The translations under genes were made by a program, and so were the position numbers. A stretch of 41,607 bases of DNA. It comes from a virus. Shown here piece after piece: positions 870 through 38,806 of the stretch (the first letter of the stretch is position 1; every line of letters starts with the position of its first letter). The stretch lies in IMG/VR virus record IMGVR_UViG_3300037245_000565, positions 1 through 41,607 of that record; one strand, given 5' to 3'. The notes under the pieces were generated by a model. That model was not told the DNA's origin, searched no databases, and was given only the letters and a program-made list of their open reading frames with translations.

Positions 870-3800
870 TTATACCATCCCACCATCAGTGATAATCCAA
901 CCTGCTATATTGTTTAGATAATCCCATGCTGGTTTTGACGCTATGGAATACTTTGATAATCCTCCATGAAATGGTACATTATCTTGAGCACGACCAGCTT
1001 GGTGTTCTGAAGCAAAGTACCAGATCATCTCATCGTAACCGCCTTCACCTGTGGTGTTGATGGTGACGGGAGCCAAGGGGTCTGTATCAGTATCGAATAT
1101 CTCAGACATCGTAGTAACATTGGAAATATCCCAACTCGTTACTGGTATTGTTTTGAGTTTCGGGTTTGACGCAAACATCCCCACCATAGTAGTGGCACTA
1201 GACACACTTAGAGAAGCTAATCCTATAATCTCTAGGTTAATGCATTGGTCAAAAACAGATTGCATGTCTGTGACTTTCGAAGTGTCCCAATTCGTTATGT
1301 CCAACTGGGCTAGTGTTTCTACCCTCTGGAACATCCAAGATATGCTTAACCCGTTCGATACATCCCAACTAGACACGTCTACTTCTATTAGAGCTATACA
1401 CCCCAAGACAAAGGTTGGAAACTCCCACACGTTAGATGTATCCCAGTCTGAGCACTCTAAGCGTACAAGCAATGCGTCATTATAAAACATAGATCGCAGA
1501 GACTCTGCACCTTCTACACCAAGCGTACCAAGATCGGCATCAATAAGGTTATAGCAATGGGCGAACGCATTCCTGAAACTAGTAACAACACCTGTATCAC
1601 AATATCCCGATTTTACCGATGTCATGTTTTCACAGTGCCTGAATGCTGAATAGAAGCTTGTCCACCCGACTGCTCCGAGGTTCTCTACCGTTGTGATGAA
1701 TAGTTGATCCCCTGCACCGTCGCATAGTATCCGAGGGAATGTTCCAGAAATTCTACATTCGTATGTTCCAATAGTAGGTAATTCCTGTGCTAACCCGCTC
1801 ATATCTCCATCAGAGAATGTATCTGATACAACCAATGTGCCTGTGTCATCAAACCATTCAATCGTTCCGTTATAACCAGTTCCAGTGGTTGGAACCGTTA
1901 TAGTTTGAGGTGTAGATGTAGTTGTCCAAGTTGTGATGAATGAGTCTTTTGAACCACCATCAATAATCGTCCAACCCTTTACATCAGTTAAATAGTCTCT
2001 ATCAATTTTACCTGTTTCTGAGTATCTACTAAACCCACAATCAAGTAGTTGCCCGACATTAATATCTTGTGATGCTATAGTTTTAAGTAGGATATCATAA
2101 TATTCAGTTTCCAATTCAACGTATTGCAAAAATTCTTTGAACCCCAAAGTGTATGACGCGGGTCCAAATATCCATTTACTAAAATCTATTTTTGTAAGTT
2201 TAAAACATTCTTCAAACATTCCTCGCATATAACCGAAGTTTACATTATCAAATGACTCAATGCCGATTATTTCACTTAACGAAAAACAAGCACCGAATAT
2301 CCACTCTATATCAGCACCTTCAGGGAAATGTTGAGAACTGATATCAACACTTGTTAGATTGCTACATTTCTCAAACCAACCAGATATATCAATACCTATG
2401 TGTTGAATGTTAATATCTAATGTTGCGGTAGTAATTCCCGACTCTTGAAATATGTTTTTAATGGTAGTTACTGAAGAAAAATCAAGATCATTAAACCCTG
2501 TTGGAATTTCTATCAAGTTCGGACAGGTGGAACAACACCAGTTGAAGTCTGTTACTGAACTAGTGGTTAATCCTCTCATATCTAAAGTCTGAATAGCGGA
2601 GTCATAACATAATGTAAATAAGCTCGTAACATTACTAGTATCCATACCTCTAAGATCGGCTGATACTAATGATGGTGTAGTTCTAAACATACTTGACATA
2701 TCAGTAACCTTGGAAGTATCACTGTCACCAACTTTGAATGAAACTATTCCACCTCTAAACGCCGAGTTTAAATTAGTAAACCCAGTGTATCCCATATTTT
2801 CCACAGACCTAAGATTATCTGCCGATGTTGACTGATAATTATCCATACGCTCAAATATTCCAGAAACTCTGACCGTATACGTACCAGCTAATGCATACTC
2901 ATGTGTGAAGTTTGGATCATCATACGAAGTAAATGGGAGAACTGTTCCATCACCCCAATCAATTGTACCGTTGTATTCATAGTTAAGAGTGAGGACAGGA
3001 TCTCTTTCAGTGGGGAAGATGATAGTTTCTGCTGGTGAAGTAGTTTCCCATGTTGTAATGAAATCTTGATTAGATCCATCATCATTAATAGTCCAACCTT
3101 TCGTATTGATCAAGTAATCTCTTGATGCTTCGGATGCTGGTGAGTAGCGGGAAAACCCACCATCGAAAACAAGCCCATTATTTACATCTTGAGATGCCAT
3201 CGTGTTCAGGAGGATGTCATAGGATTCCGTGTCAAGCTGAGTTTCCAACAGGAATCCGTCTATATTCGTGACCGATTCGAAGTTCCAGTTGGAGAGGTTT
3301 AGATTAATATCTTGTTGTATTATGTAGTTAAACATCCCCTCCATCCGTGTTGCGGAGGATGTGTCGATACCCTCTATACCCCCGATGTTATCCAATGTGA
3401 ACCTCTCAGAGAATAGGTAGGCGAAATCCTCGATACCCGTGAAACTTGGAAGAGTCGGTATCGGAGTCGCCCCTGTTTCCGAAAGGAAAGTCGATACACT
3501 TGTTGCCCCTGATAAATCGAAGTGACCAATCATCAAAGGCTCAATGTTGTTGTATGTTTGCCAGAACATGTGAGTGAACTCCGTCCCGCTACTCGTATCC
3601 CATGTACTCACGTCAATGGACGTTAATCCATTAGCGTACTGGAAACATTTCTGGAACGACTGCACCCCTGAAACGTCAAGTGTATTCAGACCAACAATTT
3701 CAGGACAAGACTCCAAATCATTAAACATGGATCTTATCGACAAGCACATGTCTAAATCGATGCCTGTGACATCGCACCTTACCAGACCGTAACAATCTAG

Positions 3801-6242
3801 TAACATGTTCTGGTTAGTCACCGATGCCGATGTGTTGCATTCCCCTGCTGTGAAATCAGTCATGTTCTCACAACCCCTGAATGCCGAATAAAAACTAGTC
3901 CACCCAACACTCCCTAAGTTCTCAACAGTTGTGATAAAGAGCTTGTCACCGCCATTGTTGAAGTAAAGTTGCGGAAATGTTCCGGTGATCCGACATTCGT
4001 ATGTTCCAATCGTAGGTAATTCCTGTGCTAATCCACTCATATCACCATCACTAAAAGTGTCTGCTACAACCAATGCACCTGTATCATCATACCATTCAAT
4101 TGTTCCGTTATAACCAATTCCATCAGTAGGGATAGTTAATGTCTGTGCATTAGATGTAGTTGTCCATGTCGTGATAAATGCTTCATTTGAACCACCGTCA
4201 TTAATAGTCCAACCTTTTGTATTGATCAGGTAATCTCTCGAAGCGGTTCCAACGGCTGAGTAGCGGGAACCACCCATATCGAAGGTGAGGTTAGATGTGA
4301 CGATATCCCTCGCAAGCGCATTCAGTAGTATGTCGTATGAGTCGGTTGTAAACTTGGAATTCATAGCGAACTCGTGGATTTGTACGAGGTTTGTAAAGTC
4401 CCAAGCGGATAGATCTAAATCAATTTCTTCAACTACACTTTTGAACATCCCATAGAGATGTGTTGCCGAGCTAGTGACGAGGGTTTCTATTCCTGTGATA
4501 TTTTGCACCGTGGCTCTGTTCTCGAACATCCACTGAAGGCGATCTTGATTATCAAGATTGGGAAGGATTATAGGGTGAGATGGATTACCAACGGCTTCAA
4601 CAATAGCGAACATACCTGAGCAATTGGTTACGTTGGTAGCATCGAAGCCGCTACAATCGATAGTTCCTTGTAAGCTCAGTAGACCTGTAAATAAATTATG
4701 AAACGAGACCCATTGTGATGTGTCCCAACGAGATACATCGTGCGTTTCCAGACTCTCCATGTCTGAACTCATCTGAGCAGTTTCAATCGGGTCTTGAGTG
4801 TTCCACTGCCATTGACTCATGTCAAAAACTCTCAATACGGTACAGAAACTTGACATGAATCCGGTCTTGATGACATTCGACACATCCCAACTGGACATAT
4901 AAACCTCTTCCAGTTTAGAACACGCATATATGAGGGTGTATAGATCTGAACAACCACTTACGTCCATAGTTTCGGCGTTGATGGTAATAAGCTCTGGGCA
5001 TGATCTGAACATCCCCCTTACTGTAGTCACATTCGAGGTGTCGCAATATCCCGATTCAAATGAGACAATCCCTGACCCCCTGAATGCTTGTCCTAAGTTA
5101 GTCCATCCAACATATCCTAAGTTCTCCACCGTCTTGATGAAAGCTTGATCCGTTGCCTCGTGAAGCAGGATGCTAGGGAATGTTCCCGACACAAATAATC
5201 TATAATTACCAATATCAGAAAATAAAGTTGTTGCATCAATAGAGCTACCCAATCCGCTGTAGCTACTTTCCGATATAATTTGACCAGTATCTCTATCTTC
5301 CCATCTTGTACTGAAATCATAAGTCAATGCATCATCTAGAGGAATAGTCAAGGTCTGTGAAGGACTTGTAGTTTCCCATGTAGATATAAATTGTGGTAGA
5401 GGATCAGAATCGCTTGGGGTATATGGTACTTCACCCTCATTATATAATTTATTAAAGTCGTTTATTTGGGTTCTGTTAAGATTTAAATATTTCGAACCAT
5501 CATCACCCACATTGTTTAGAATTCTTTGTTTTGTTATTGGATAGAAATATTTAACCAATCTACCATCATCGTAATATTCGTCATATACCTTTTCGTTAAT
5601 ATAGTCGAATTGAGAGTTGTTATATATAGAAACAATCTCCGCATCTGAAAGCACTCTATCGAATACAATAAAATCTGCAATACTTCCATCTAAGGCTCGT
5701 GTGTCATTCGTATTATTATTAGGATATCCAATCTTAAACAATCCATCAGTAGTATGTGCTGTATATGTTAGATCGGAAATAGTAGATTTTTCACCGTTGA
5801 CGTATAGTTCAATAATACCTACATTGTTGACACATACTATGTGCATCCATTGGTTTAAATTATCGTGATAATTGCTGAAGGTTTTTCCTGTATATTCATT
5901 CCCATCATATCGTTGGAACCCTATTTTATTCGAGTCATTGGATATATTTAGTGCATGTCTATCTGAACTACTAGTACCAGTATTCCAAATAACCATAGTT
6001 GATTCTTCAGTACCAGTTTGTTTAACCCAACAAGACACAGAGTATATACCTAATTGTTCGAATATACCATTGAAATCATCTAATGGAATCTCAACATTAT
6101 CAGTTGGATCATTAAATGATCGGGCTATCCCAAAAGGACTACCCACTTCAGTAGTTCCATTATAAGTATACTCAGGATTTTCTACTCCTAAGTCTTCAGC
6201 GAACACCGCTCCAGTGTTTATATATCTTCTAATTTCAGCCAT
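870..6242 (-). CDS. Giant modular leucine-rich-repeat adhesin (LamG + 4 LRR modules)
   Basis: A 1790-residue virion protein, presumably a host-recognition fibre or adhesin. Residues 35-210 form a LamG-like domain (SVSCWVKQTG, LYVNGE, GYPNNN). Four tandem modules follow at about 285-688, 689-1059, 1060-1434 and 1435-1790. Each module has a linker of the type FITTWETTS, an Ig/PKD-like segment (GTIDWGDGT; Y-x-R-x-SG-x-F), a cap (VENLG-x-x-GW-T ... AFR), DUF285/BspA-type leucine-rich repeats (xMFxxC, WDTSNVTxM) and a closing cap (SRYS ... RDYLINTKGWTI). DUF285 repeats are known from bacterial surface proteins such as BspA. Start supported by AAGGAAA about 6 nt upstream. Base composition varies between modules, which suggests recombination. 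Binding function is inferred. Confidence 0.75.
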   Translation of the reverse strand: MAEIRRYINTGAVFAEDLGVENPEYTYNGTTEVGSPFGIARSFNDPTDNVEIPLDDFNGIFEQLGIYSVSCWVKQTGTEESTMVIWNTGTSSSDRHALNISNDSNKIGFQRYDGNEYTGKTFSNYHDNLNQWMHIVCVNNVGIIELYVNGEKSTISDLTYTAHTTDGLFKIGYPNNNTNDTRALDGSIADFIVFDRVLSDAEIVSIYNNSQFDYINEKVYDEYYDDGRLVKYFYPITKQRILNNVGDDGSKYLNLNRTQINDFNKLYNEGEVPYTPSDSDPLPQFISTWETTSPSQTLTIPLDDALTYDFSTRWEDRDTGQIISESSYSGLGSSIDATTLFSDIGNYRLFVSGTFPSILLHEATDQAFIKTVENLGYVGWTNLGQAFRGSGIVSFESGYCDTSNVTTVRGMFRSCPELITINAETMDVSGCSDLYTLIYACSKLEEVYMSSWDVSNVIKTGFMSSFCTVLRVFDMSQWQWNTQDPIETAQMSSDMESLETHDVSRWDTSQWVSFHNLFTGLLSLQGTIDCSGFDATNVTNCSGMFAIVEAVGNPSHPIILPNLDNQDRLQWMFENRATVQNITGIETLVTSSATHLYGMFKSVVEEIDLDLSAWDFTNLVQIHEFAMNSKFTTDSYDILLNALARDIVTSNLTFDMGGSRYSAVGTASRDYLINTKGWTINDGGSNEAFITTWTTTSNAQTLTIPTDGIGYNGTIEWYDDTGALVVADTFSDGDMSGLAQELPTIGTYECRITGTFPQLYFNNGGDKLFITTVENLGSVGWTSFYSAFRGCENMTDFTAGECNTSASVTNQNMLLDCYGLVRCDVTGIDLDMCLSIRSMFNDLESCPEIVGLNTLDVSGVQSFQKCFQYANGLTSIDVSTWDTSSGTEFTHMFWQTYNNIEPLMIGHFDLSGATSVSTFLSETGATPIPTLPSFTGIEDFAYLFSERFTLDNIGGIEGIDTSSATRMEGMFNYIIQQDINLNLSNWNFESVTNIDGFLLETQLDTESYDILLNTMASQDVNNGLVFDGGFSRYSPASEASRDYLINTKGWTINDDGSNQDFITTWETTSPAETIIFPTERDPVLTLNYEYNGTIDWGDGTVLPFTSYDDPNFTHEYALAGTYTVRVSGIFERMDNYQSTSADNLRSVENMGYTGFTNLNSAFRGGIVSFKVGDSDTSKVTDMSSMFRTTPSLVSADLRGMDTSNVTSLFTLCYDSAIQTLDMRGLTTSSVTDFNWCCSTCPNLIEIPTGFNDLDFSSVTTIKNIFQESGITTATLDINIQHIGIDISGWFEKCSNLTSVDISSQHFPEGADIEWIFGACFSLSEIIGIESFDNVNFGYMRGMFEECFKLTKIDFSKWIFGPASYTLGFKEFLQYVELETEYYDILLKTIASQDINVGQLLDCGFSRYSETGKIDRDYLTDVKGWTIIDGGSKDSFITTWTTTSTPQTITVPTTGTGYNGTIEWFDDTGTLVVSDTFSDGDMSGLAQELPTIGTYECRISGTFPRILCDGAGDQLFITTVENLGAVGWTSFYSAFRHCENMTSVKSGYCDTGVVTSFRNAFAHCYNLIDADLGTLGVEGAESLRSMFYNDALLVRLECSDWDTSNVWEFPTFVLGCIALIEVDVSSWDVSNGLSISWMFQRVETLAQLDITNWDTSKVTDMQSVFDQCINLEIIGLASLSVSSATTMVGMFASNPKLKTIPVTSWDISNVTTMSEIFDTDTDPLAPVTINTTGEGGYDEMIWYFASEHQAGRAQDNVPFHGGLSKYSIASKPAWDYLNNIAGWIITDGGMV

Positions 6243-11652: not shown

Positions 11653-13770
11653 TTATTTCCAAGAAGGTGGTATATCACCGTAATTAGTGATGCTGGTACA
11701 ATCTTCGAATGTGTAATCATAATCCGTTATGGATGCATTATTCCACCATTGAGCAGGATCTAGTGTTATTGCTAATTGTGTACATTGGGAAAATGCCCAA
11801 TCAACGTTCCACATAGTGGTTGTTAGAACCCATCCACTTAGATCGAGATATGTTAATGCAAAACAATCTGTAAACATATATCTCATATTGTTGACATTAA
11901 TCATATTCCAACCAGATACATCAACCGTTGTTATTAATTCACAACCATGGAACATATCCAACATTAAATCACATGAACCTGTATCAAAACTAGACACATC
12001 AATTGAAGTGGCAACAGTACAGTCCCAGAATGTTGAGTCCATTTCTTCAACTAATGATGTAGACATCATTGATAAGTCGATGGTTGTTATGGATGTACAA
12101 TCAGAGAACATATATGAGATATTGAATAAGTAAGGAGTATTTCCATTACCATCGAAGGTTATCAGAGAGGTACATCCAGAAAATGCGTCAGCTAAATCTA
12201 ACCAACCGAGATTACCAAGAGATTCTACACTTGTTAGGTAAGATCTAAATGTTCCTGACATAAATCCTTTCCATGTACTAAATGATTCACAAAGTCCAGA
12301 AATTGTAATTTGATAGATTCCTGCTCCAGCATAAGTATGAGATTTATTAGCATCATTCCATGCAGTTACAGTATCAATTGGACTTCCATCACCCCAATCA
12401 ACAGTAAAGTTATATTCATAAGGATCTACATAGTATCCATATTGGTCTTCTTCATGAATAGGGAGATATATTGTCTGTGATGAAGGTAAAGTAAATGTAG
12501 CTTGGAAATCTTCAGCATATGATGGTATTGGTTGATAATTATTATCATATGTTATATTAAATTTACCTTTACTCATGTCATCCATTTCGATATAATATGC
12601 ATGTGGTGTAATACCAATTACCGTTGTTAATGTTGTTGGTACATTATTCGTTATTATATCAACACGATCAGTACCGGACTCAAATGTGAATGTGTCAACA
12701 ATTCCACTAATAGCTGAGAAATAACATGTGATCGGGTCACCTTCAACTAATTCAAATATTGACGAGTTTGTAGTATCCAATTCGATATCTGGGTTTATAA
12801 CTGGATATCCAGACAGATTTGACTCTAATGAATGGTATGTATCTAATGATAAGTCGTCTCTAAGATTAAAGGAATATTCAAGTAATACTTCAAATGCTGT
12901 ACGCTTATCAAACTCTTCTGGTGATAATTGATTTCCAAATACATCAACCGTTGACCAATTATAGACACTACCAGTCACACTATATAACCTTGTTGGTATG
13001 TATACACCGGAAAGTGCGCCCGTTCCGAATTGACCACCAATGAACGGTGATCGGAGTGATGCTGTTTCAATTGAATCATCAACTGTTGGTTTATCAACCC
13101 ATGATGGTATTGAAGCCGTTTCCAAGTATATAGAATTTTTAACACCGTATAAGAATTCAGATGAACGTTCATTCATCGGGAAGAATTCAAGTAGTTCACC
13201 ACCGGAATCATACCATCTAACATTTGCGATCATATTATTGAAATAATTACCATCATCAGTACCCAGATAAAATGATGATCCAGATATACTGAATAGATTC
13301 AAGATTGATGTATCGCTATCAAGTATTTCCCATACTTCACCATTATCAGTACTATACTCGATATACACACTATCAATATCACCTACGATATCACCCGTAT
13401 ACACCGCATGATTGTCACCGGATAAGCTTATAGCCTTGTCATATTCAAACCCTGTCGCTGTAATGACTTCAATTGTACCACTTAATATGTAATCATACAT
13501 TATGGTTGTGTCAAAATTAATAATACCATCTAATCTGTATGATGGTGACATTGGATCGGTTAGGTTGTTTCGTTGAAAAACTATGTTATTTTCAACGGTA
13601 TGGAAATCATCAACAGTGTTTTTTAATATCGATTCACCAACATCATTGAACCATACGTTATTTGCAGTATCATCCATATATGGTATATTACCCGTTGGTT
13701 GATATACGTCATCACCCCCAGATAATATAACTGAACTGATATTCGGTGCATTATAAATGTCATTTAGCAT
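11653..13770 (-). CDS. Baseplate-region protein with PKD-like domain and LRR C-terminus
   Basis: A 705-residue protein in two parts. Residues 1-430 are beta-rich and unassigned, presumably the virion anchor. Residues 448-492 form a PKD/Ig-like segment (VDWGDGS, then HTYAGAGIYQITISG). Residues 512-700 are DUF285/BspA-type leucine-rich repeats (AFSGCTSL, YMFSDCTSI, MFHGCELI, YMFTDCFAL). The C-terminal half has the same architecture as the modules of the adhesin at 870-6242, with SVESLGNLGW matching the module cap VENLG-x-x-GW. The gene follows the gp7-type wedge gene, where T4 carries gp8 to gp12, so it may be a baseplate-anchored receptor-binding protein. No strong Shine-Dalgarno is visible. 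The anchor role is inferred. Confidence 0.6.
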   Translation of the reverse strand: MLNDIYNAPNISSVILSGGDDVYQPTGNIPYMDDTANNVWFNDVGESILKNTVDDFHTVENNIVFQRNNLTDPMSPSYRLDGIINFDTTIMYDYILSGTIEVITATGFEYDKAISLSGDNHAVYTGDIVGDIDSVYIEYSTDNGEVWEILDSDTSILNLFSISGSSFYLGTDDGNYFNNMIANVRWYDSGGELLEFFPMNERSSEFLYGVKNSIYLETASIPSWVDKPTVDDSIETASLRSPFIGGQFGTGALSGVYIPTRLYSVTGSVYNWSTVDVFGNQLSPEEFDKRTAFEVLLEYSFNLRDDLSLDTYHSLESNLSGYPVINPDIELDTTNSSIFELVEGDPITCYFSAISGIVDTFTFESGTDRVDIITNNVPTTLTTVIGITPHAYYIEMDDMSKGKFNITYDNNYQPIPSYAEDFQATFTLPSSQTIYLPIHEEDQYGYYVDPYEYNFTVDWGDGSPIDTVTAWNDANKSHTYAGAGIYQITISGLCESFSTWKGFMSGTFRSYLTSVESLGNLGWLDLADAFSGCTSLITFDGNGNTPYLFNISYMFSDCTSITTIDLSMMSTSLVEEMDSTFWDCTVATSIDVSSFDTGSCDLMLDMFHGCELITTVDVSGWNMINVNNMRYMFTDCFALTYLDLSGWVLTTTMWNVDWAFSQCTQLAITLDPAQWWNNASITDYDYTFEDCTSITNYGDIPPSWK

Positions 13771-22408: not shown

Positions 22409-23843
22409 CTAGTGCTCCACTTGTGTCATTATTATCAACCTTTAAATTATCATCAGTTGTTCTATTGATAATTTCACCGATTGATGTTGCCATCTTTATA
22501 CCGACTGATTCAATTTCTTTACCAACCGATACATTATTACTATCATTTGATATATAGTTTAAGTATGAGTTGAAGTTGTTTGGTATTAATGATTGGAATG
22601 TGATGATAACTTTAAATGCATCTGGTTGTCTTCTGATCGCATTATCATTCAATACAATCTGGGAATTGTTTCCGAAGTGTGCTTTGATGATACCTAACAC
22701 ATCATCTGTTATTATACGCTCTTTACCTGAATATTCAATTTTGATATCAGCCTTACAGAAATAATATCTGTAACGACCTTCAACCTCTATGTCATATAGA
22801 CATGATGAAAGTTGTTTGAACTGCTTCTGAACCCACATATTACCACTACTCAATGAGTGTACGAATGCTAGGTTATTAACCAAATCATCTGATGTAACGT
22901 TGTATAACATGAATTCGAATGTCACACTATCTGAAGCTGGACCTGATCCATCTACCGACCATTTTGGTTTACTTGCGATATCAAACGATGATGCTAAGTC
23001 ACTGAACTTATCCAACATACCCGCCAAACCAGCTGGGAATAAACGCTGTTTCAATGATCTAGCTTCCCACCCAACATCACCCATACCATGTAAAAAACCC
23101 TCTTGGTTGTAAAACGGCATATCATATCTAGCCGTATAGAAACCACCAATGATGTTGCTATAAAAGAAATTCGGTATACTTTTAACTGACCCAAGATCAC
23201 TGTTGATCTCTTCAATGCTACGACCTGTGATTTTTTCCAACAACTCACCCATACCATCACTGGTGAATAAACCCTTAAGGTTTTCTATTTTCTGGTTACG
23301 TGAACCCTTATCCTTAAAAAATTCATCAAATAATTTAAATGTATCCTTGAATAAATTACCAAGTTCTGATATTGAGTTATTTGGTTGAAATTCATATACT
23401 TTAACGGTTGGTACATTCTTGATATATTCATTTATAGGGTTGTATGGTTCACCCGCTTGTTCATTATTACCAAAAAGACCACCAACCGAATCAATAACAC
23501 CTTTGAATTGATTAACAGCATATGAAGCTGATTTATTTATGACATTTGATATACCACCAATACTACTCACATCAGAGATTGATATACCACCGAATATACC
23601 AATATCATTTTCATTCAATAAATCATTACCAACATGGTATATATCACTGTTTAGGTACTCTTCCAATCCATCTGGATACCATCGATAATCAGTTATACTG
23701 AACACATTCTTATTTGTATTGATACTTCCAGCCGATGGACGGTCAACCTGTAATCGGAATGGTGACAACAATCCACGATAATCTGGATCAAGTTCCAATG
23801 TTGATGTTTTCTTATTTTTAATTGTTTTTATATCATCAGCCAT
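22398..23843 (-). CDS. Baseplate tail-tube cap/junction protein, gp48-type
   Basis: A 481-residue protein placed directly after the tape measure, as gp48 follows gp29 in T4. Residues 1-200 are polar and Gly/Ser-rich. The C-terminal 190 residues (DSVTFEFMLYNVTSDDLVNNLAFVH, WVQKQFKQLSSCLYDIEVEGRYRYYFCKADIKIEYSGKE and DAFKVIITFQSL in succession) follow the tube-like beta pattern expected of a protein that continues the tail-tube fold. Its ATG overlaps the tape-measure stop (TAATG). T4 gp48 has 364 residues. Assignment is by order and pattern; a general 'tube junction protein' is the safe name. Confidence 0.65.
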   Translation of the reverse strand: MADDIKTIKNKKTSTLELDPDYRGLLSPFRLQVDRPSAGSINTNKNVFSITDYRWYPDGLEEYLNSDIYHVGNDLLNENDIGIFGGISISDVSSIGGISNVINKSASYAVNQFKGVIDSVGGLFGNNEQAGEPYNPINEYIKNVPTVKVYEFQPNNSISELGNLFKDTFKLFDEFFKDKGSRNQKIENLKGLFTSDGMGELLEKITGRSIEEINSDLGSVKSIPNFFYSNIIGGFYTARYDMPFYNQEGFLHGMGDVGWEARSLKQRLFPAGLAGMLDKFSDLASSFDIASKPKWSVDGSGPASDSVTFEFMLYNVTSDDLVNNLAFVHSLSSGNMWVQKQFKQLSSCLYDIEVEGRYRYYFCKADIKIEYSGKERIITDDVLGIIKAHFGNNSQIVLNDNAIRRQPDAFKVIITFQSLIPNNFNSYLNYISNDSNNVSVGKEIESVGIKMATSIGEIINRTTDDNLKVDNNDTSGALDVK

Positions 23844-25108
23844 TAGAATGTGTCCTTATCAAAACTTGGTTCACCTTTAAAATCGTCGCTCACTGTTATC
23901 ACTGTTGGTGATACGTTTTGATTGGTTGTATTGTTGTTGATATTATTTACTATCGAAGTCTCTAAGTATCTATTACTTTCAAGGAGTCTTGTTTTCCATT
24001 TTGTATCATCATCTTTGATCTGTTTTTTTACCACTATATCACGTTTCGCTTTATCGTTTATTGATGAATCCATTGTTTTCGATACGTTAACAACCACCTG
24101 TGGTCTAAAATCAATAGGGGTTTGACCATCCACCGCATTCACTTCTGATGATGCTTCATTAGTAGCATTGACCTCTTTTAATATAGATTCAGGTATCTCA
24201 AACGCTCTAACTTCACCAGCCAATGCTTTAAGTTTATCTTGGATCTTATTTGGTAGTATACGTAGATTACCAAGTGCTGATAATATTCCACCAATCATTT
24301 TCTTATATAAGATTAACATTGGTCTTATAACCTTAAAAAGAACATTAACGATTGGTGTTATGAATGACATAATTTTATCAAAGAATGGTTTGATATTATC
24401 ATTGTACCATATATTCAGTTTATCTGGGAACTCTTTCCAGAAATTTATGGTATCCTCAAGCATCTGTTTAGCATTACCCCACATATCTTTGAAGAATGAT
24501 ATAGCATCAGTGACTTTATCAACGATGGGTAATATAATTGGAATCCAAACTGTGTTTTTAAACCATGCAGATATGAACGCAATTAACATCATACCCGCTG
24601 GTGATGTTAGGAATTGAAGAATCATTGCGGCTGAAAAGAATTTCATCAGTGTTGATGTCATAACCTTACCGACACCCTTCATAAGTTTGCCGGATATGGA
24701 TTTACCAAACTTCTCCATGGAATTACCCATGTTACCTTTAAACGCTGATACCCGTTCACCCATCTTACCGACAATATTCTTATCAGCTATATTCGCACGT
24801 AAATCGTTTAATTTCTTACGTAACATGTCCTGTGGGATCATAAGTTTATCCATTACTTCAGATAAATTTTCTTTCCGTTTTTCGGATCTCTTGATAGCTT
24901 CTTCTTTAACTGCTTGGGCTTCAACTATCCGTTTTTCACGATTAATCTTCCATTCATCCATATTTTTGGACATCATGGATTTCATATTGACATACTGCTC
25001 ACGTCCACTATCAATTTTGGAATCGATACTGGTCATAAGTTTACCCAACTCTTCACTGACTTTATCAGATATAAAGTTGGCTTGTTGGATTGTTTGTGCT
25101 TCGTCCAT
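23843..25108 (-). CDS. Tape measure protein (gp29-type)
   Basis: About 421 residues. The first 150 are highly charged and helical (SEELGKLMTSIDSK, MSKNMDEWKINREKR, KRSEKRKENLSEVMDKL). Residues about 155-205 contain hydrophobic segments (MKFFSAAMILQFL, GMMLIAFISAWF, VWIPIILPIVDKV), followed by more amphipathic helices. This pattern, with the position just after the frameshifted tail chaperone, is that of a tape measure. At roughly 420 residues it is shorter than T4 gp29 (590), implying a shorter tail if lengths scale. The start at 25108 is favoured because GGTGA lies 5 nt upstream of that ATG; a GTG nine bases earlier would also be in frame. A late promoter lies at 25146-25153. Confidence 0.7.
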   Translation of the reverse strand: MDEAQTIQQANFISDKVSEELGKLMTSIDSKIDSGREQYVNMKSMMSKNMDEWKINREKRIVEAQAVKEEAIKRSEKRKENLSEVMDKLMIPQDMLRKKLNDLRANIADKNIVGKMGERVSAFKGNMGNSMEKFGKSISGKLMKGVGKVMTSTLMKFFSAAMILQFLTSPAGMMLIAFISAWFKNTVWIPIILPIVDKVTDAISFFKDMWGNAKQMLEDTINFWKEFPDKLNIWYNDNIKPFFDKIMSFITPIVNVLFKVIRPMLILYKKMIGGILSALGNLRILPNKIQDKLKALAGEVRAFEIPESILKEVNATNEASSEVNAVDGQTPIDFRPQVVVNVSKTMDSSINDKAKRDIVVKKQIKDDDTKWKTRLLESNRYLETSIVNNINNNTTNQNVSPTVITVSDDFKGEPSFDKDTF

Positions 25109-25145
25109 TAGGTTCACCGTAAAAGTTAAGGGATATGTTCACCCC

Positions 25146-25153
25146 TATTTATA
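25146..25153 (-). promoter_or_regulatory. T4-type late promoter TATAAATA
   Basis: Exact TATAAATA on the reverse strand, 37 bp upstream of the tape-measure ATG at 25108. It overlaps the stop codon (25151-25149) of the -1 frameshift product. Confidence 0.7.
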
Positions 25154-26083
25154 CGTCATCACCCATTTCATCAATTTTGTTGACGATGAGTTTGTTGTAT
25201 ACCATGAAATCAAGTATTGGTAGAGCACCAAGTTCAAATGGGTTCACATGTAGATGTAGTAATATAGATGATTCAACATCCAATATCATAGCATACGTCT
25301 GTTCAAAGACGCATTTTATTATGTAAAAAAATCTTCTATACTGACACCTCCAGTCAGTACCTCTTTACAATTTGAACATGAATATTCATCTGTAAGGTTT
25401 TCAAGAACGTTAAACATGTTGGTGGAGATTAGTTCAACTATACCACCATCTCCATATAATATTTCCTGTGGGAATATCGATAAAAGTTCCTTGACATCAT
25501 TTACATCAAGTTTATTTAAATCAACGGTATCCTCACCAAATTCGATTACGGATATAAATTGGTCATATATGTCATACATATCAGACATAACCACTTTCTT
25601 ACCCGTGAGTGTCTTGTAATATTTACCCATCCTAACCACGGTTGGGAACTCAATTTTAAATTTCACTCCATCAACTGTTTCAAACTTAGGATCAATATCA
25701 ACTTCTTCTAGGTTTTTCACGATCTTCGAATAATCAATCTTAACATCATTGACCACTTCACATGATTTACATTTGATTGTGATATCACTATTGAAGAAGT
25801 TTCCGTTATACAGTTCCACTAATATTTTGATACGGTCTAATTCGGTTATGGTTTTTATATTCAAGTCGTCACTCAAGCATGTTGCCTGTATTAAACCAAT
25901 AAACGCCTGATAAATAATATACTGATCACCATCAGCATCAAGCATGATTTTGGTTATGGTTTTCTGTTCACCCACGTTAATCGACCTGAAATCATATGTT
26001 TTCTTTCTGGATGGGATTAAAATAGATGTAACATTTGTTGAATATTTCTCTTGCAATGCTTTTTGGATGTTGTTATAGTCCAT
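25149..26083 (-). CDS. Frameshifted long form of the tail assembly chaperone (311 aa)
   Basis: Product predicted if ribosomes slip -1 at 25331-25325. Residues 1-253 are shared with the short form; reading then continues for 58 codons, beginning YIIKCVFEQTYAMILDVESS and ending VNKIDEMGDDV before TAA at 25151-25149. The extension is a normal-looking helical sequence filling the otherwise unexplained gap before the tape measure. This is the layout known for tail assembly chaperones of many long-tailed phages (lambda gpG/gpGT is the classic case), where the extension contacts other tail proteins. In T4 the corresponding function is split between gp26 and gp51. The alternative is a separate small gene starting at an internal ATG, which has no good ribosome-binding site. 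Confidence 0.7.
25293..25331 (-). promoter_or_regulatory. Programmed -1 ribosomal frameshift element
   Basis: The slippery heptamer T TTT TTT (25331-25325, in frame GAT TTT TTT ACA) is followed by a 10-nt spacer and an 8-bp stem, ATGCGTCT (25314-25307) with AGACGTAT (25300-25293), one G-U pair and a 6-nt loop. The zero-frame stop TAA (25321-25319) lies inside the spacer. Confidence 0.75.
25319..26083 (-). CDS. Tail assembly chaperone / baseplate hub assembly protein, gp26-type (short form)
   Basis: A 254-residue protein of the T4 baseplate assembly type (gp26/gp51 group). The N-terminal stretch KKTYDFRSINVGEQKTITKI, followed by a helical region (DQYIIYQAFIGLIQATCL, ITELDRIKILVELYNG), is typical. 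Two cysteine pairs, CKSC (105-108) and CSNC (236-239), suggest a zinc ribbon, as seen in relatives. It probably escorts the tape measure or hub during assembly and is not necessarily in the virion. The Shine-Dalgarno is GAGGTAG 3-8 nt upstream. It ends in a slippery T7 run that produces a longer form. A sigma70-like promoter and hairpin precede it. Confidence 0.78.
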   Translation of the reverse strand: MDYNNIQKALQEKYSTNVTSILIPSRKKTYDFRSINVGEQKTITKIMLDADGDQYIIYQAFIGLIQATCLSDDLNIKTITELDRIKILVELYNGNFFNSDITIKCKSCEVVNDVKIDYSKIVKNLEEVDIDPKFETVDGVKFKIEFPTVVRMGKYYKTLTGKKVVMSDMYDIYDQFISVIEFGEDTVDLNKLDVNDVKELLSIFPQEILYGDGGIVELISTNMFNVLENLTDEYSCSNCKEVLTGGVSIEDFFT

Positions 26084-26147: not shown

Positions 26148-26954
26148 TTAAAGGCTATCAAATAGATCAGCTGATGTACGTCTGATGGATGACTGAAGAT
26201 CGTTACCGATATATTTATCAAATACATCGTCCAATACACTTGATGTGATCTTCTTGCTTGGTAGAACTGCCATCATATCGAAATTGAATAGAACGGTTCT
26301 AGTTAATGGTGTTTCAGCAGATTGGTTTGGGTTCATTGTTTCAACTTCATGTGGATATGCACCGAAGAATTTATACCCGTAAATTTCTTCTGATGTTTTG
26401 TGATCCAACATTCTCACCGTGATGTTGCATTTTGTGAATGGTCTTTCATTGTATATCCACTTTTGATCAGTTGATTCCTTCATCCAATAATACATCACAT
26501 GTTCGTGGATTGAAAGTTCAGTACTCAGGAACGCGAAGGTCATCTGGTTATCAGTTGGAATAACAACAACACCCGCTGGTGAGTTTGCACCAAGTTCGTT
26601 GATGTGTCGTTCCTCTTTTCTGAATGATCTGAAGTTCGGTATCTCAATTGATTGTATGAAATATTTAAGTCCAGCACCACTTGATGATCCAAGACTATTA
26701 GCTAAGATCGTTTTAACGTTACTGTTTGCAGGTTTGAAATCAAATGAAACATCAAAATAATACTGTTTGGATAATTTGAATACAGATTTATCAGCATAAT
26801 ACGTAGAATTCACACCAAATCTATTATAGAATTGACGTAGGTTCGCTGAGTCTCCGTGTATATTAAGAACGTTAGCCAGTGATGTATTAGCTAACGTTGT
26901 TCCCAATGTACCTTGGATATCATCTAATGTGAAATTGCTGATATCGAATGCCAT
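26148..26954 (-). CDS. Tail tube-related structural protein (gp54/gp48-like candidate)
   Basis: A 268-residue protein. After a 60-residue N-terminus it shows the strand pattern of tail-tube-fold proteins: KQYYFDVSFDFKP, then FIQSIEIPNFRSFRKEERH, then NQMTFAFLSTELSIHEHVMYYWMKE, then PFTKCNITVRMLD and TRTVLFNFDMMAVLP. The element 'IEIPNFR...', the exposed hydrophobic run and the 'HEHVMYYWMK' helix parallel gp19-type tube proteins. In T4 the proteins of this kind beside the tape measure are gp54 (tube initiator) and gp48. Here it sits before rather than after the chaperone and tape measure, so the exact T4 equivalent is uncertain. The Shine-Dalgarno AGGTC is modest. Confidence 0.55.
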   Translation of the reverse strand: MAFDISNFTLDDIQGTLGTTLANTSLANVLNIHGDSANLRQFYNRFGVNSTYYADKSVFKLSKQYYFDVSFDFKPANSNVKTILANSLGSSSGAGLKYFIQSIEIPNFRSFRKEERHINELGANSPAGVVVIPTDNQMTFAFLSTELSIHEHVMYYWMKESTDQKWIYNERPFTKCNITVRMLDHKTSEEIYGYKFFGAYPHEVETMNPNQSAETPLTRTVLFNFDMMAVLPSKKITSSVLDDVFDKYIGNDLQSSIRRTSADLFDSL

Positions 26955-28603: not shown

Positions 28604-30697
28604 TTAGACTATAACCTCTTCCAGACTAACACCTGTACTCGTAGCAACGAAATTCAATATGATGTATCTAATACCCTTAACAGGTTTGATCAAGATTGAG
28701 CATAGTAACTCACCACGATCAATAACTTCTGGTGTATTATTCGATTCATCACATATAATTTTGAATTCTAGAATACCACCCTTCACCTGTACTTCAGTGA
28801 ATGTTGGGGTAATCTGGTCAACGAAACGCTGACGTGTAATAGAATTGTTACCCTCGAAAAGGTAATACTTCGACACTTTACGTGTTGCACGTTCAATTCT
28901 TAAGAACATTCTACGAACATTGATTGAATCAAATGCTGAAGGTTTAGTCTGAAGAGTTTTATCACCATTGATGATAATACCATCAAATGGAGATGAAATG
29001 AACGGGTTCATCGCTTTAGTGAAGATTGAATCCTGTTGTTTACCGTTTGGATTGAATGCAATATCATTGATATTAGAAACAACACCACGGTTCCAACCAG
29101 CTGGAGCCATCCAGTAATTAGAGATTCTATCTGTGTAAATGTATACACCGTTTGCTGTAATCGATGGTGGTAACCAGAACATTTCACCAGTGAAATCGTC
29201 CAATTTTTTACCCCATATTGGATACATTGCACCATAAGATGAATTTAATCCAGTGATATATTTCAATTTAGGAATAATATTGGTGTCAATTGTATTGGTT
29301 GGAGCACTTGGTCTAACAATTTTTTGGTTACCTTCGATTGCTAGGTTACGAGGTCCATCAATAATCGCCATACAATCTTTACGGGTAGTCTGACAGAATG
29401 TAATCATTTTCTGTGCAACACTTCTCCACGTATCAGCATCAGAACGACTATCAAGTGTCCATGCTGATGCACCTGTTGATGATGGGTCATATACTATAGC
29501 ATCCGTATTTCCACCATCACTACAGTATGAAGCGATTGTAGTTAATCCAGCATCAACAATTTGGTCAATTTCAACATCATCGATGTTGTTTAGTTTTCCA
29601 TAGATTATATCCAAACCAGTTGTAATGGTTGATGTCTTGATTTTTTTAGCCATTTGTTCAGTAGTGAAACCGAATACATCAGCATCAACAGCTTTGATCG
29701 AATATAATTCAGCATTGTCACTTACCAGATTGGTAGTAACGTTTGAGTATAAGTCAATGTAATTCGAACTTGAGTTGATGATGTTATCAATAAATGTTGA
29801 ATCACCAGTACCAACGTTGATTGCTGAAGGATTCAATGAACCAACAAATGTCTCAACGATAGATGATGTGATTTTATTATTGTTATCAGAATCAACAAAC
29901 TGTCTGATCACCGAAACAGAGATCTGATGTAGGAACTCTGGATCAAGATCACCGTCATCAGTCAACGTAACAGCTGGGAACAGATATGCAGTTCTAGACG
30001 ATAGAGATGATTCTGTTGTACCTGATGTGTAATAAGACTCAGTTGTATCATCAACAATTAAACCACCAGATGTAGTTGCAGAAGATACTGAATACCAATC
30101 TGTTACATCACCTTCAAGAAGATCCTGTAATGGTAGAGCATTATATGCAGTGTTGACTACAACGAATGTACCAACGGTTTCATTACCTAGATTGTCGTCA
30201 GATAATGTTTGACGGGTTTTATCGATAACAACAAATGTGTCAACATCTGGTTTAGTTGCACCTGTACGATATGAATCAAGAGCAGATAATGCGATTGAAC
30301 CATTACTTGTAATAGTCAATTCTGATTCAGCTGATAAACTGTAATCAGCATATGCTGATAAAACCTCACCAGACAGTGCCTTAGTTCCACCAACGGTGAA
30401 TATTGTCTTCATATACGTATCTGTAACAGTGTTGTTATAAGGTAGTTTGGCTACAATAGTTTTACCATTCTGGGTGATTGATTCAAGTATGCTGTTATAA
30501 AAATAACGTTCAGCTTCATTGGTAGGTTTACCGAAGTATGTCAATACTGACGTTCTTGATGTGAATTCCAACGGTAGGTAATCTTCACCTTTATCAGCAA
30601 ACCCAACAGTTAATGAGGTAGTACCCGCAATAGCTGGATTATACTGCGATAGATCAGTTTCGTTAAATTCAACATCTGGGTGTTGTATAGTTCTCAT
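28604..30697 (-). CDS. Tail sheath protein, gp18-type
   Basis: A 697-residue protein, close to T4 gp18 (659). It forms the contractile sheath. The start MRTIQHPDVEFNETDLSQYN and the following TSLTVGFADKGEDYLPLEFTSR match sheath N-termini. The C-terminal part (QQDSIFTKAMNPFISSPFDGI, INVRRMFLRIERATRK, NNSITRQRFVDQITPTF, KIICDESNNTPEVIDRGELL) is the conserved domain that builds the helical mesh. The intervening residues about 120-350 are the variable outer domain. The Shine-Dalgarno AAGGAGA lies 8 nt upstream, with a late promoter at 30745-30752. A hairpin follows the stop. Confidence 0.95.
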   Translation of the reverse strand: MRTIQHPDVEFNETDLSQYNPAIAGTTSLTVGFADKGEDYLPLEFTSRTSVLTYFGKPTNEAERYFYNSILESITQNGKTIVAKLPYNNTVTDTYMKTIFTVGGTKALSGEVLSAYADYSLSAESELTITSNGSIALSALDSYRTGATKPDVDTFVVIDKTRQTLSDDNLGNETVGTFVVVNTAYNALPLQDLLEGDVTDWYSVSSATTSGGLIVDDTTESYYTSGTTESSLSSRTAYLFPAVTLTDDGDLDPEFLHQISVSVIRQFVDSDNNNKITSSIVETFVGSLNPSAINVGTGDSTFIDNIINSSSNYIDLYSNVTTNLVSDNAELYSIKAVDADVFGFTTEQMAKKIKTSTITTGLDIIYGKLNNIDDVEIDQIVDAGLTTIASYCSDGGNTDAIVYDPSSTGASAWTLDSRSDADTWRSVAQKMITFCQTTRKDCMAIIDGPRNLAIEGNQKIVRPSAPTNTIDTNIIPKLKYITGLNSSYGAMYPIWGKKLDDFTGEMFWLPPSITANGVYIYTDRISNYWMAPAGWNRGVVSNINDIAFNPNGKQQDSIFTKAMNPFISSPFDGIIINGDKTLQTKPSAFDSINVRRMFLRIERATRKVSKYYLFEGNNSITRQRFVDQITPTFTEVQVKGGILEFKIICDESNNTPEVIDRGELLCSILIKPVKGIRYIILNFVATSTGVSLEEVIV

Positions 30698-36717: not shown

Positions 36718-37551
36718 TTACACTCCGTATTTGTATCCAAACAATGTTATATCTTGATTGAACGTTTCATTAACGAATTTTATCGACTTACCGTTATAAT
36801 ATTCGGTATAATTTTTGACCGTTTCATCAGATACATTAAGTTTAACTTCACTACTCAGATCAATATCAAGTATAGTTGAAATTCGGTCAATTTCTATGTT
36901 GTAATTCTCAAATCTAGCGATATAATTAGTAACCAGTTCACCAGTTTTTGATAATATGTAATTACATTGATTCACATCAGGGTTTAAAAAAGACCTATAT
37001 AAACCAATATGTTCATGTGCATTACATATAAAATCATTGAAATTGTCTTTGGTTGTTCGTTTCGCAACTTCTTCATCCCAGTCAAGGTCTTCGTTCCATA
37101 TACGTGCAACCTCTTCGATTACGATCTTATTCTTGAATATTGAAAAGACATAATCCCACGGGTTTCGTATGAATGCGAATCTGAAATAACCATCATATAA
37201 ACCTTTGTGGTTTAATAGAGACGTTGAATGACGTTTGTTTTCATGGAGAACGATATGTGGACCAAGACCTTCATGGAACATATTCAACCATCTAATTTTA
37301 TCTGGGTTTTTTCTGTAGAATAGGTTTATATCATCCTGTGGCATCGAATTGTAACAATCAACAACACATGAATCAATTTCAGATATATTTTCAACTTCTG
37401 GATAATGTTGTTCAAGAAGGTCAACAAGTTCTTTCAATTTTTCATACTTGTTATAATTGTTGCTATACCTAGATAATAGGTATGTAAATGATGTACCACC
37501 AGTCTTCGGTATATGAAAATAAATAAATTTATGTGAATCTGAAATAATCAT
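36718..37551 (-). CDS. Sulfotransferase (family 2-like)
   Basis: A 277-residue protein predicted to move sulfate from PAPS to a carbohydrate. FIYFHIPKTGGTSF (9-22) is the 5'-phosphosulfate-binding loop of the carbohydrate sulfotransferase group, and FRFAFIRNPWDYVFSIF (123-139) contains the 3'-phosphate-binding Arg and the downstream Ser. HxNKRHSTSL before it is typical as well. The start at 37551 gives an ATGA overlap with the glycosyltransferase stop and a GGTGGA ribosome-binding site; an ATG nine bases upstream is less well placed. The two sulfotransferases in the cassette belong to different subfamilies, so they probably act on different positions or acceptors. Confidence 0.82.
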   Translation of the reverse strand: MIISDSHKFIYFHIPKTGGTSFTYLLSRYSNNYNKYEKLKELVDLLEQHYPEVENISEIDSCVVDCYNSMPQDDINLFYRKNPDKIRWLNMFHEGLGPHIVLHENKRHSTSLLNHKGLYDGYFRFAFIRNPWDYVFSIFKNKIVIEEVARIWNEDLDWDEEVAKRTTKDNFNDFICNAHEHIGLYRSFLNPDVNQCNYILSKTGELVTNYIARFENYNIEIDRISTILDIDLSSEVKLNVSDETVKNYTEYYNGKSIKFVNETFNQDITLFGYKYGV

Positions 37552-38768
37552 TTGAAGCATTCCACCATTTTTTTTATATTTTTATCATTGCTGAAATTAT
37601 CATTGACCATCTGTACACACTCATCAGACATGTCCATATATTCTAATATATCCAAATCGTATATTTTATCCATCCTATCGAAAATCATGTCAACATCACC
37701 CTCATTGGTGGTATACCCAGTCACACCATCGATTATAATCTCAGGTATACCGGAATAGTTTGTACCAATACATGGTGTACCCATTGACATACTTTCAATG
37801 AAGAATGTTGGTAATCCCTCTTTATCACCTGTATCAGTTGTAGTTGATGCTAAAATTGATAAACTCGCGTATTGTATGTATGACATAATTATTTTATTTT
37901 CAACATGTCCAACAAAATGTACGAAGTCACCCAAATCTAGATCACTAACTAACTGTTTAAGTTCGGCATCTAATGTACCACAACCAGCGATAATATAATG
38001 AACTTCTGGGTATTTATCATGTAATTTTTTGAATGCGGTGATCGAATGTTTATAACCCTTCATCTCAATTAATCTACCAGCACTGAAGATGTATTCAAAT
38101 AGTGGTATATCATTTCGTTTCATATTGGGTTTGATATCGGAGTAGTTGACCCGTTTTATGATCACTTTATCACCAGAGACACCGAAATTATCAATTATAT
38201 ATTTTTTATTGTATTCGGAAATAGTGAAAATCCTTTTAGCTAAAGCTGATTTCAATTTCTTATAACCCTTCATACAGAATAAATCATAGGCATGTGTGTT
38301 GAAAAAGAATGGGATACTCGTATTCCAATATATGAACATACAAATATCAGCACCAAGTTGACCAAACGGTGAGTATAACTTGGTCACACCATCGGATATT
38401 ACCTTCTCACAAATTGAACAGAATGGATCTCGTGAATTTACTAATGCCATGAATTCAGTATCTTGTCGATCCTTATCGGATAGGTCGTCCAAATCACGCA
38501 TATATTTGTTAGTAGATAGGGGTATCTGGTGTTTATCGATTTCACCCCAGTTGAATAACCCTTCATGCTGTAGATATGTGATATTGTCACCGATTATTTC
38601 CAACGCTTCAGTATAAAGATCCATTTCTTCATCGGTTGGTTTACTCATTGAGTATATTTTTACATCTATACCCGAATTGATAAGCTCTACAATCTCATTC
38701 ACTACGAACGTATTAGTACGTTCTGGGAATTTATACACAAATACACCTAAAACTATTTTATCATTCAT
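37548..38768 (-). CDS. Group 1 (GT4) glycosyltransferase
   Basis: A 406-residue GT-B enzyme of the GT4 family that adds a sugar from a nucleotide-sugar donor with retention of configuration. The N-terminal VFVYKFPERTNTFVVNEIVE is typical of the WcaL/colanic-acid-type subgroup ('FP..TETFV..EI'). The C-terminal Rossmann half starts at FSAGRLIEMKGYKHSI, includes YIIAGCGTLDAELK and ends with the EX7E motif EGLPTFFIE (317-325) followed by MGTPCIGTNYSGIPEII. The start at 38768 was chosen because GTGAG lies 5 nt upstream; a GTG six bases earlier is possible. It is the first gene of the cassette and is preceded by a hairpin and a -10-like TATAAT. Acceptor unknown. Confidence 0.85.
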   Translation of the reverse strand: MNDKIVLGVFVYKFPERTNTFVVNEIVELINSGIDVKIYSMSKPTDEEMDLYTEALEIIGDNITYLQHEGLFNWGEIDKHQIPLSTNKYMRDLDDLSDKDRQDTEFMALVNSRDPFCSICEKVISDGVTKLYSPFGQLGADICMFIYWNTSIPFFFNTHAYDLFCMKGYKKLKSALAKRIFTISEYNKKYIIDNFGVSGDKVIIKRVNYSDIKPNMKRNDIPLFEYIFSAGRLIEMKGYKHSITAFKKLHDKYPEVHYIIAGCGTLDAELKQLVSDLDLGDFVHFVGHVENKIIMSYIQYASLSILASTTTDTGDKEGLPTFFIESMSMGTPCIGTNYSGIPEIIIDGVTGYTTNEGDVDMIFDRMDKIYDLDILEYMDMSDECVQMVNDNFSNDKNIKKMVECFK

Positions 38769-38806
38769 AAGCACTCACATTAACTGTTAATCTATATTAT
38801 ACGTGA

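Follow-up and report, generated by a model that had tools for sequence, protein, structure and literature searches.

The window, that is, the whole stretch of 41,607 nucleotides analysed here (IMG/VR virus record IMGVR_UViG_3300037245_000565), carries on its minus strand a gene resembling T4 gene 26, placed between a probable second tail-tube gene and a probable tape-measure gene (Table 1). Read directly on that strand, the gene ends GAA GAT TTT TTT ACA TAA, with the stop codon at 25321-25319, and from the slippery heptamer the -1 frame stays open up to a TAA at 25151-25149. The arms of the downstream hairpin, ATGCGTCT (25314-25307) and AGACGTAT (25300-25293), form 8 pairs, one of them G-U. 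The original prediction had described a gp26-type gene, the heptamer with an 8-bp hairpin 10 nt further on, and a 58-codon -1 frame reaching 25149 and filling an otherwise empty gap. All of these elements were read as claimed, the family match of the gene lies above the cut-off, and the extension covers most of the 201-nt gap 25118-25318, the only large gap between co-directional genes in the window; the GGAGGT at 25351-25346 is an element that the prediction did not contain.

Table 1 Features at the tail assembly chaperone (TAC) locus. Coordinates are positions in the window; L001 is the close relative described in the text.
Feature	Position	Strand	Evidence
TAC-N / gp26-like gene, unshifted product 254 aa	25319..26083	-	PF12322; phrog_150; predicted N-terminal domain nearest HK97 TAC 2OB9
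Shine-Dalgarno-like GGAGGT, 14 nt upstream of the slippery site	25346..25351	-	direct reading; kept in L001
Slippery heptamer T_TTT_TTT, one codon before the stop	25325..25331	-	direct reading; T_TTT_TTN in 133/133 IMG/VR relatives
8-bp hairpin, loop TTGAAC, 10 nt downstream of the heptamer	25293..25314	-	RNA folding z -2.1 (window) and -3.3 (L001); identical in L001
-1 frame extension (TAC-C position), 58 codons + stop; putative fusion product about 311 aa	25149..25325	-	coding pattern against L001
Probable tape-measure gene, 424 aa	23843..25117	-	position and hydrophobic/helical composition only
Probable second tail-tube (gp19-like) gene	26148..26954	-	PF06841, E=2.2e-4, below the curated cut-off

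Protein family, predicted structure and neighbouring genes

In a profile search the gp26-like protein matched PF12322, the T4 gp26/gp51 family (E=3.8e-10; 40.2 bits vs a cut-off of 24.5 bits), and the baseplate hub family phrog_150 (E=1.1e-9). It shares only about 15–20% identity with the TAC genes of T4-like phages described below, gave no match by tblastn against phages, and stands beside the T4 pair in a gp26/gp51 tree on a branch of length 3.45, a placement that is given no weight. Two IMG/VR contigs with a related sheath (L005 and L009) gave no PF12322 match.

An AlphaFold2 model of the protein (alignment with 43 relatives; pLDDT 76.7) had the HK97 tail assembly chaperone 2OB9 as its best solved match in Foldseek, a weak one (E 0.92), and as its top match in VIA-align (Z 6.9; 4.1 A over 85 residues; model residues 5–96). 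The next VIA-align matches were 3FGX (Z 6.8), 5IR0 (Z 6.2, in another region) and prophage YqbN, 3KLU (Z 6.2); 3FGX and 3KLU are prophage proteins of the XkdN/YqbN chaperone type. All of these values lie below Z 8, where matches can stem from a common arrangement, and the model is thus no more than suggestive of a TAC-N-like fold in the N-terminal half. A sequence search of solved structures with the gp26 profile gave a single match, at chance level. The 5IR0 match concerns the C-terminal half of the model (residues 130–232), and the matched protein is ORF19 from a PICI-like element of Vibrio cholerae. A satellite protein that looks like a tail chaperone might act on phage tails.

The product of 23843-25117 matched nothing in Pfam-type or phrog family searches. 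The probable gp19-like gene lies directly upstream of the TAC gene, an order common to the window, KVP40 and phiM12. Elsewhere in the window, the tail sheath (28604-30697, minus strand) has marine T4-like phages as its nearest deposited phages (34–41% identity over the C-terminal part), namely Kyanoviridae cyanophages and Pelagibacter phage HTVC008M. Two further minus-strand genes (870-6242 and 11653-13770) code for large proteins in which segments such as DTSNVT and MFRSCPELITINAETMDVSGCSDLYTL recur; the proteins resemble bacterial surface repeat proteins and are possible adhesins or tail fibre parts.

Frameshift signals in related phages

The only close relative is L001, a viral contig whose encoded protein is 77% identical to the gp26-like protein of the window. 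A viral-contig scan with the two-row window/L001 alignment returned nothing beyond L001 and the same scan of genome contigs returned none; the close lineage is represented by these two sequences. Heptamer, GGAGGT and hairpin are identical in both, the hairpin lying inside 35 unchanged nt. The -1 extensions are 85% identical, their differences fall 9/4/16 on the three codon positions of the -1 frame, and both other frames are interrupted by many stops; from the third-position bias and these stops the extension is read as a translated frame.

More distant relatives were taken from IMG/VR with two alignment-based scans, which picked 133 distinct loci by similarity to T4-like gp26, regardless of the site; these loci are mutually related, so that the counts below are not independent and naive probabilities are too small, while the direction is clear. 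Every locus has an open -1 frame, typically of 60 codons (ended early by the contig end at one locus), and a T_TTT_TTN no more than three codons from the stop. The heptamer ends 1 or 3 codons before the stop, and its last base is C in 104 loci, T in 28 and A in 1. The pair of Phe codons always follows an NNT codon and invariably opens with TTT (TTT share in the background, 75%).

The flanking elements recur as well. GGAGG or GAGGG stands mostly 8–10 nt upstream of the heptamer, and the conserved Glu at this place is encoded by GAG in 92/114 loci vs 28% in the rest of the gene, which indicates a preference at the codon level. Downstream RNA folding in the relatives has a mean z of -1.99 vs -0.45 and -0.25 in control stretches. 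The stem of the cyanophage type carries compensatory changes (37 cells, compared with a mean of 12.7 and a maximum of 20 in arm shuffles), also beyond slid controls. The Shine-Dalgarno-like element and the hairpin are probable stimulators of frameshifting; both are spaced farther from the slip site in the window than in the cyanophage relatives.

Named phages were searched with both the PF12322 and the phrog_634 families. A phrog_634 stretch directly after the PF12322 frame, in its -1 frame, was found in 12 records by the first search (P-SSM2, S-SSM7, AG-345-L05, S-CAM9, S-PM2, HTVC008M, Cr30, phiM12, KVP40, Rhizobium RHph_Y68, Atu_ph04 and Vi01), and a gp51-like -1 extension in four further isolates (Aeh1, pf16, PhiW-14 and DLP6), 16 in total. 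The junction is T_TTT_TT(C/T/G) in 15 of the 16, nearly always one codon before the stop, and A_ATT_TTC in Vi01. In HTVC008M, RHph_Y68, Atu_ph04 and PhiW-14 the downstream region folds no better than shuffles and gives no hairpin signal. RaK2 has T_TTT_TTC and a -1 extension of 64 codons, in which no phrog_634 match was detected. The exception is Campylobacter phage CP21 (NC_019507, L253:1265-2000): its gp51-like extension is in the frame reached by a +1 or -2 shift, and heptamer and T-run are lacking; CP21 also has a second PF12322 gene at about 105.4 kb.

The original prediction had proposed to compare the slippery site, the hairpin and the extension between related phages: all three are kept in L001, and across T4-like phages the heptamer and an open -1 frame recur in 133/133 IMG/VR loci and a gp51-like -1 extension in 16 named isolates. 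The window shares with the frameshift TAC genes of T4-like phages (gp26 + 'gp51' of Kyanoviridae, KVP40, Aeh1, phiM12, Cr30 and others) a short product of the PF12322 family, T_TTT_TTY one codon ahead of the stop and a -1 extension of 55–65 codons, and with most of them the Shine-Dalgarno-like element upstream, which is farther from the slip site in the window, and the hairpin downstream. They differ in the extension, which is phrog_634/gp51-like in the T4-like genes.

Probable programmed frameshifting and other readings

The conserved signals, the coding pattern of the -1 frame, the assignment to PF12322 and the recurrence of the layout in T4-like phages together argue that the window gene is very probably a tail assembly chaperone gene with programmed -1 ribosomal frameshifting. 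Slippage, its rate, the role of both stimulators and the chaperone role are what we infer from these observations. Most ribosomes would terminate at 25319 and yield the short form. A minority would be slowed by pairing of GGAGGT with the anti-Shine-Dalgarno of 16S rRNA and by the hairpin, both Phe-tRNAs would slip simultaneously and re-pair one base back on T_TTT_TTT, and the slipped ribosomes would read on through the extension to a minor long form. If the two forms work like lambda gpG and gpGT, the short one would coat the tape measure protein and the long one would recruit tail-tube subunits.

Alternatively, the extension could be a separate small gene ('gp51') with its own start or with termination-reinitiation at the gp26 stop. 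It is annotated as such in the records of P-SSM2, KVP40 and phiM12, and in many relatives an ATG stands a few codons past the slip, in some cases overlapping the stop (TGATG or TAATG); in these relatives re-initiation is conceivable. In the window, however, the first in-frame ATG follows about 12 codons past the slip, behind the hairpin and with no Shine-Dalgarno before it. Eighteen IMG/VR loci have no ATG, GTG or TTG in the first 12 codons of the extension, and the residues there are nonetheless conserved, which a separate gene does not explain. The position of the annotated start is not a Met in HTVC008M. In cyanophages the hairpin stem covers the ATG annotated as the gp51 start, and the upstream GGAGG, about 25 nt from that ATG, is too distant to serve it; in T4 the extension is encoded only as part of a fusion. 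Separate initiation in the window is very unlikely, and the 'gp51' annotations in P-SSM2, KVP40 and phiM12 are probably wrong. For S-PM2 the two readings predict different peptides: a fused product would give tryptic ...GLQSFFR and ISMFYNNLENYYR, a separate gene would give a product starting MFYNNLENYYR, and the short form would end ...GLQSFFA.

Polymerase slippage on the run of seven T, a possible substrate with its seven identical bases, would give a mixed mRNA population in which both frames are read. The 104/133 relatives that have only T6C are short for such slippage, yet keep an X_XXY_YYZ ribosomal site, and the Shine-Dalgarno-like element and covarying hairpin fit slippage by the ribosome; we give transcriptional slippage hardly any credence.

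A chance T-run before an unused open frame is conceivable in an AT-rich genome where runs of seven T are common (12 in the window, about 20 expected; not rare as such), and is made extremely improbable by the conservation of the site in L001, with its -1 coding pattern, and in all 133 distant relatives. The window holds 64 in-frame XXXYYYZ heptamers in 34 predicted genes, and the -1 frame passes the stop in only two of these cases, the second of which merely leads into an overlapping gene. Here a glycosyltransferase-like gene (37548-38774, minus strand) has an in-frame A_AAA_AAA six codons ahead of its stop, and the -1 frame enters the overlapping 36718-37560; this is probably an ordinary overlap.

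T4 genes 26 and 51 and the origin of the extension

T4 gp26 and gp51 are paralogues, both with PF12322 as in the window protein. T4 gp26, which corresponds to the short form, has ...LKEFFELL as its C-terminus and lacks both the heptamer and a gp51-like -1 extension; T4 gp51, which corresponds to the extended form, combines this domain with an in-frame extension, and its C-terminus matches phrog_634 ('baseplate hub assembly catalyst'). T4 further differs from the window in that its two genes are separate and divergently transcribed. RB49, RB43 and Acinetobacter phage 133 share the layout of T4, with gp26 short and gp51 fused in frame. The frameshift form has been retained in two other members of Straboviridae, KVP40 and Aeh1. 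The in-frame gp51 of T4, RB49, RB43 and 133 means that a fusion polypeptide exists in nature. A tree with the eight T4-type paralogues as one clade was not rejected (p-AU 0.47), a result that is compatible with a single duplication in Straboviridae, with KVP40 and Aeh1 keeping the frameshift form. On the simplest reading frameshifting is ancestral and was replaced in the T4 branch by duplication, one copy being short and one fused. The suggestion, made with the original prediction, that a frameshifted form would show how T4's separate genes 26 and 51 relate to a fused arrangement holds in this sense: gp51 is a gp26 paralogue with an in-frame extension.

By sequence, only the short form of the window belongs to the T4-like gp26/gp51 (PF12322) family. 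The window extension scored 0.1 bits against the gp51/phrog_634 family, and 779 shuffles scored equally high (T4 gp51, 22.0; Vi01, 19.8); hhalign against the gp51 family returned a probability of 1.3%. Predicted alone, the extension forms two helices and a short linker (pLDDT 68.6; two sequences). It could be an unrelated helical segment behind the same slippery site rather than a diverged gp51 C-terminus, the arrangement being kept and the extension replaced, a reading that we consider unlikely.

Escherichia coli dnaX likewise combines an X_XXY_YYZ heptamer with a Shine-Dalgarno-like sequence upstream and a hairpin downstream; it differs from the window in being an unrelated gene, with A_AAA_AAG as its heptamer. 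The slippery heptamer and the extension of lambda gpG/gpGT are different from those of the window. As is probable for the window, lambda has a short and a -1-extended TAC from one gene ahead of the tape measure, by a mechanism described in a 2016 review in which G-T frameshifting is conserved 'except T4' (PMC5009743). The relation between the two genes of T4 and frameshifting is already published, according to the papers that cite the study of T4-like frameshift TACs by Vladimirov, Gautam and Davidson (2022; Virology 566:9), through which it is known here: the PRFect paper (PMC10274946) cites it for T4-like phages that have a short gene and a long, fused one, and the paper on phage Adele (PMC12846349) for poly-T slippery sites in T4-like TAC-N genes. 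Judged by these citations, the window is a divergent further case of a described arrangement. As far as checked, the stimulators, the conservation across the dataset and the divergent lineage are added here, and for the T4-like phages sampled, the sequences show the frameshift layout to be the rule outside the T4/RB49/RB43/133 group.
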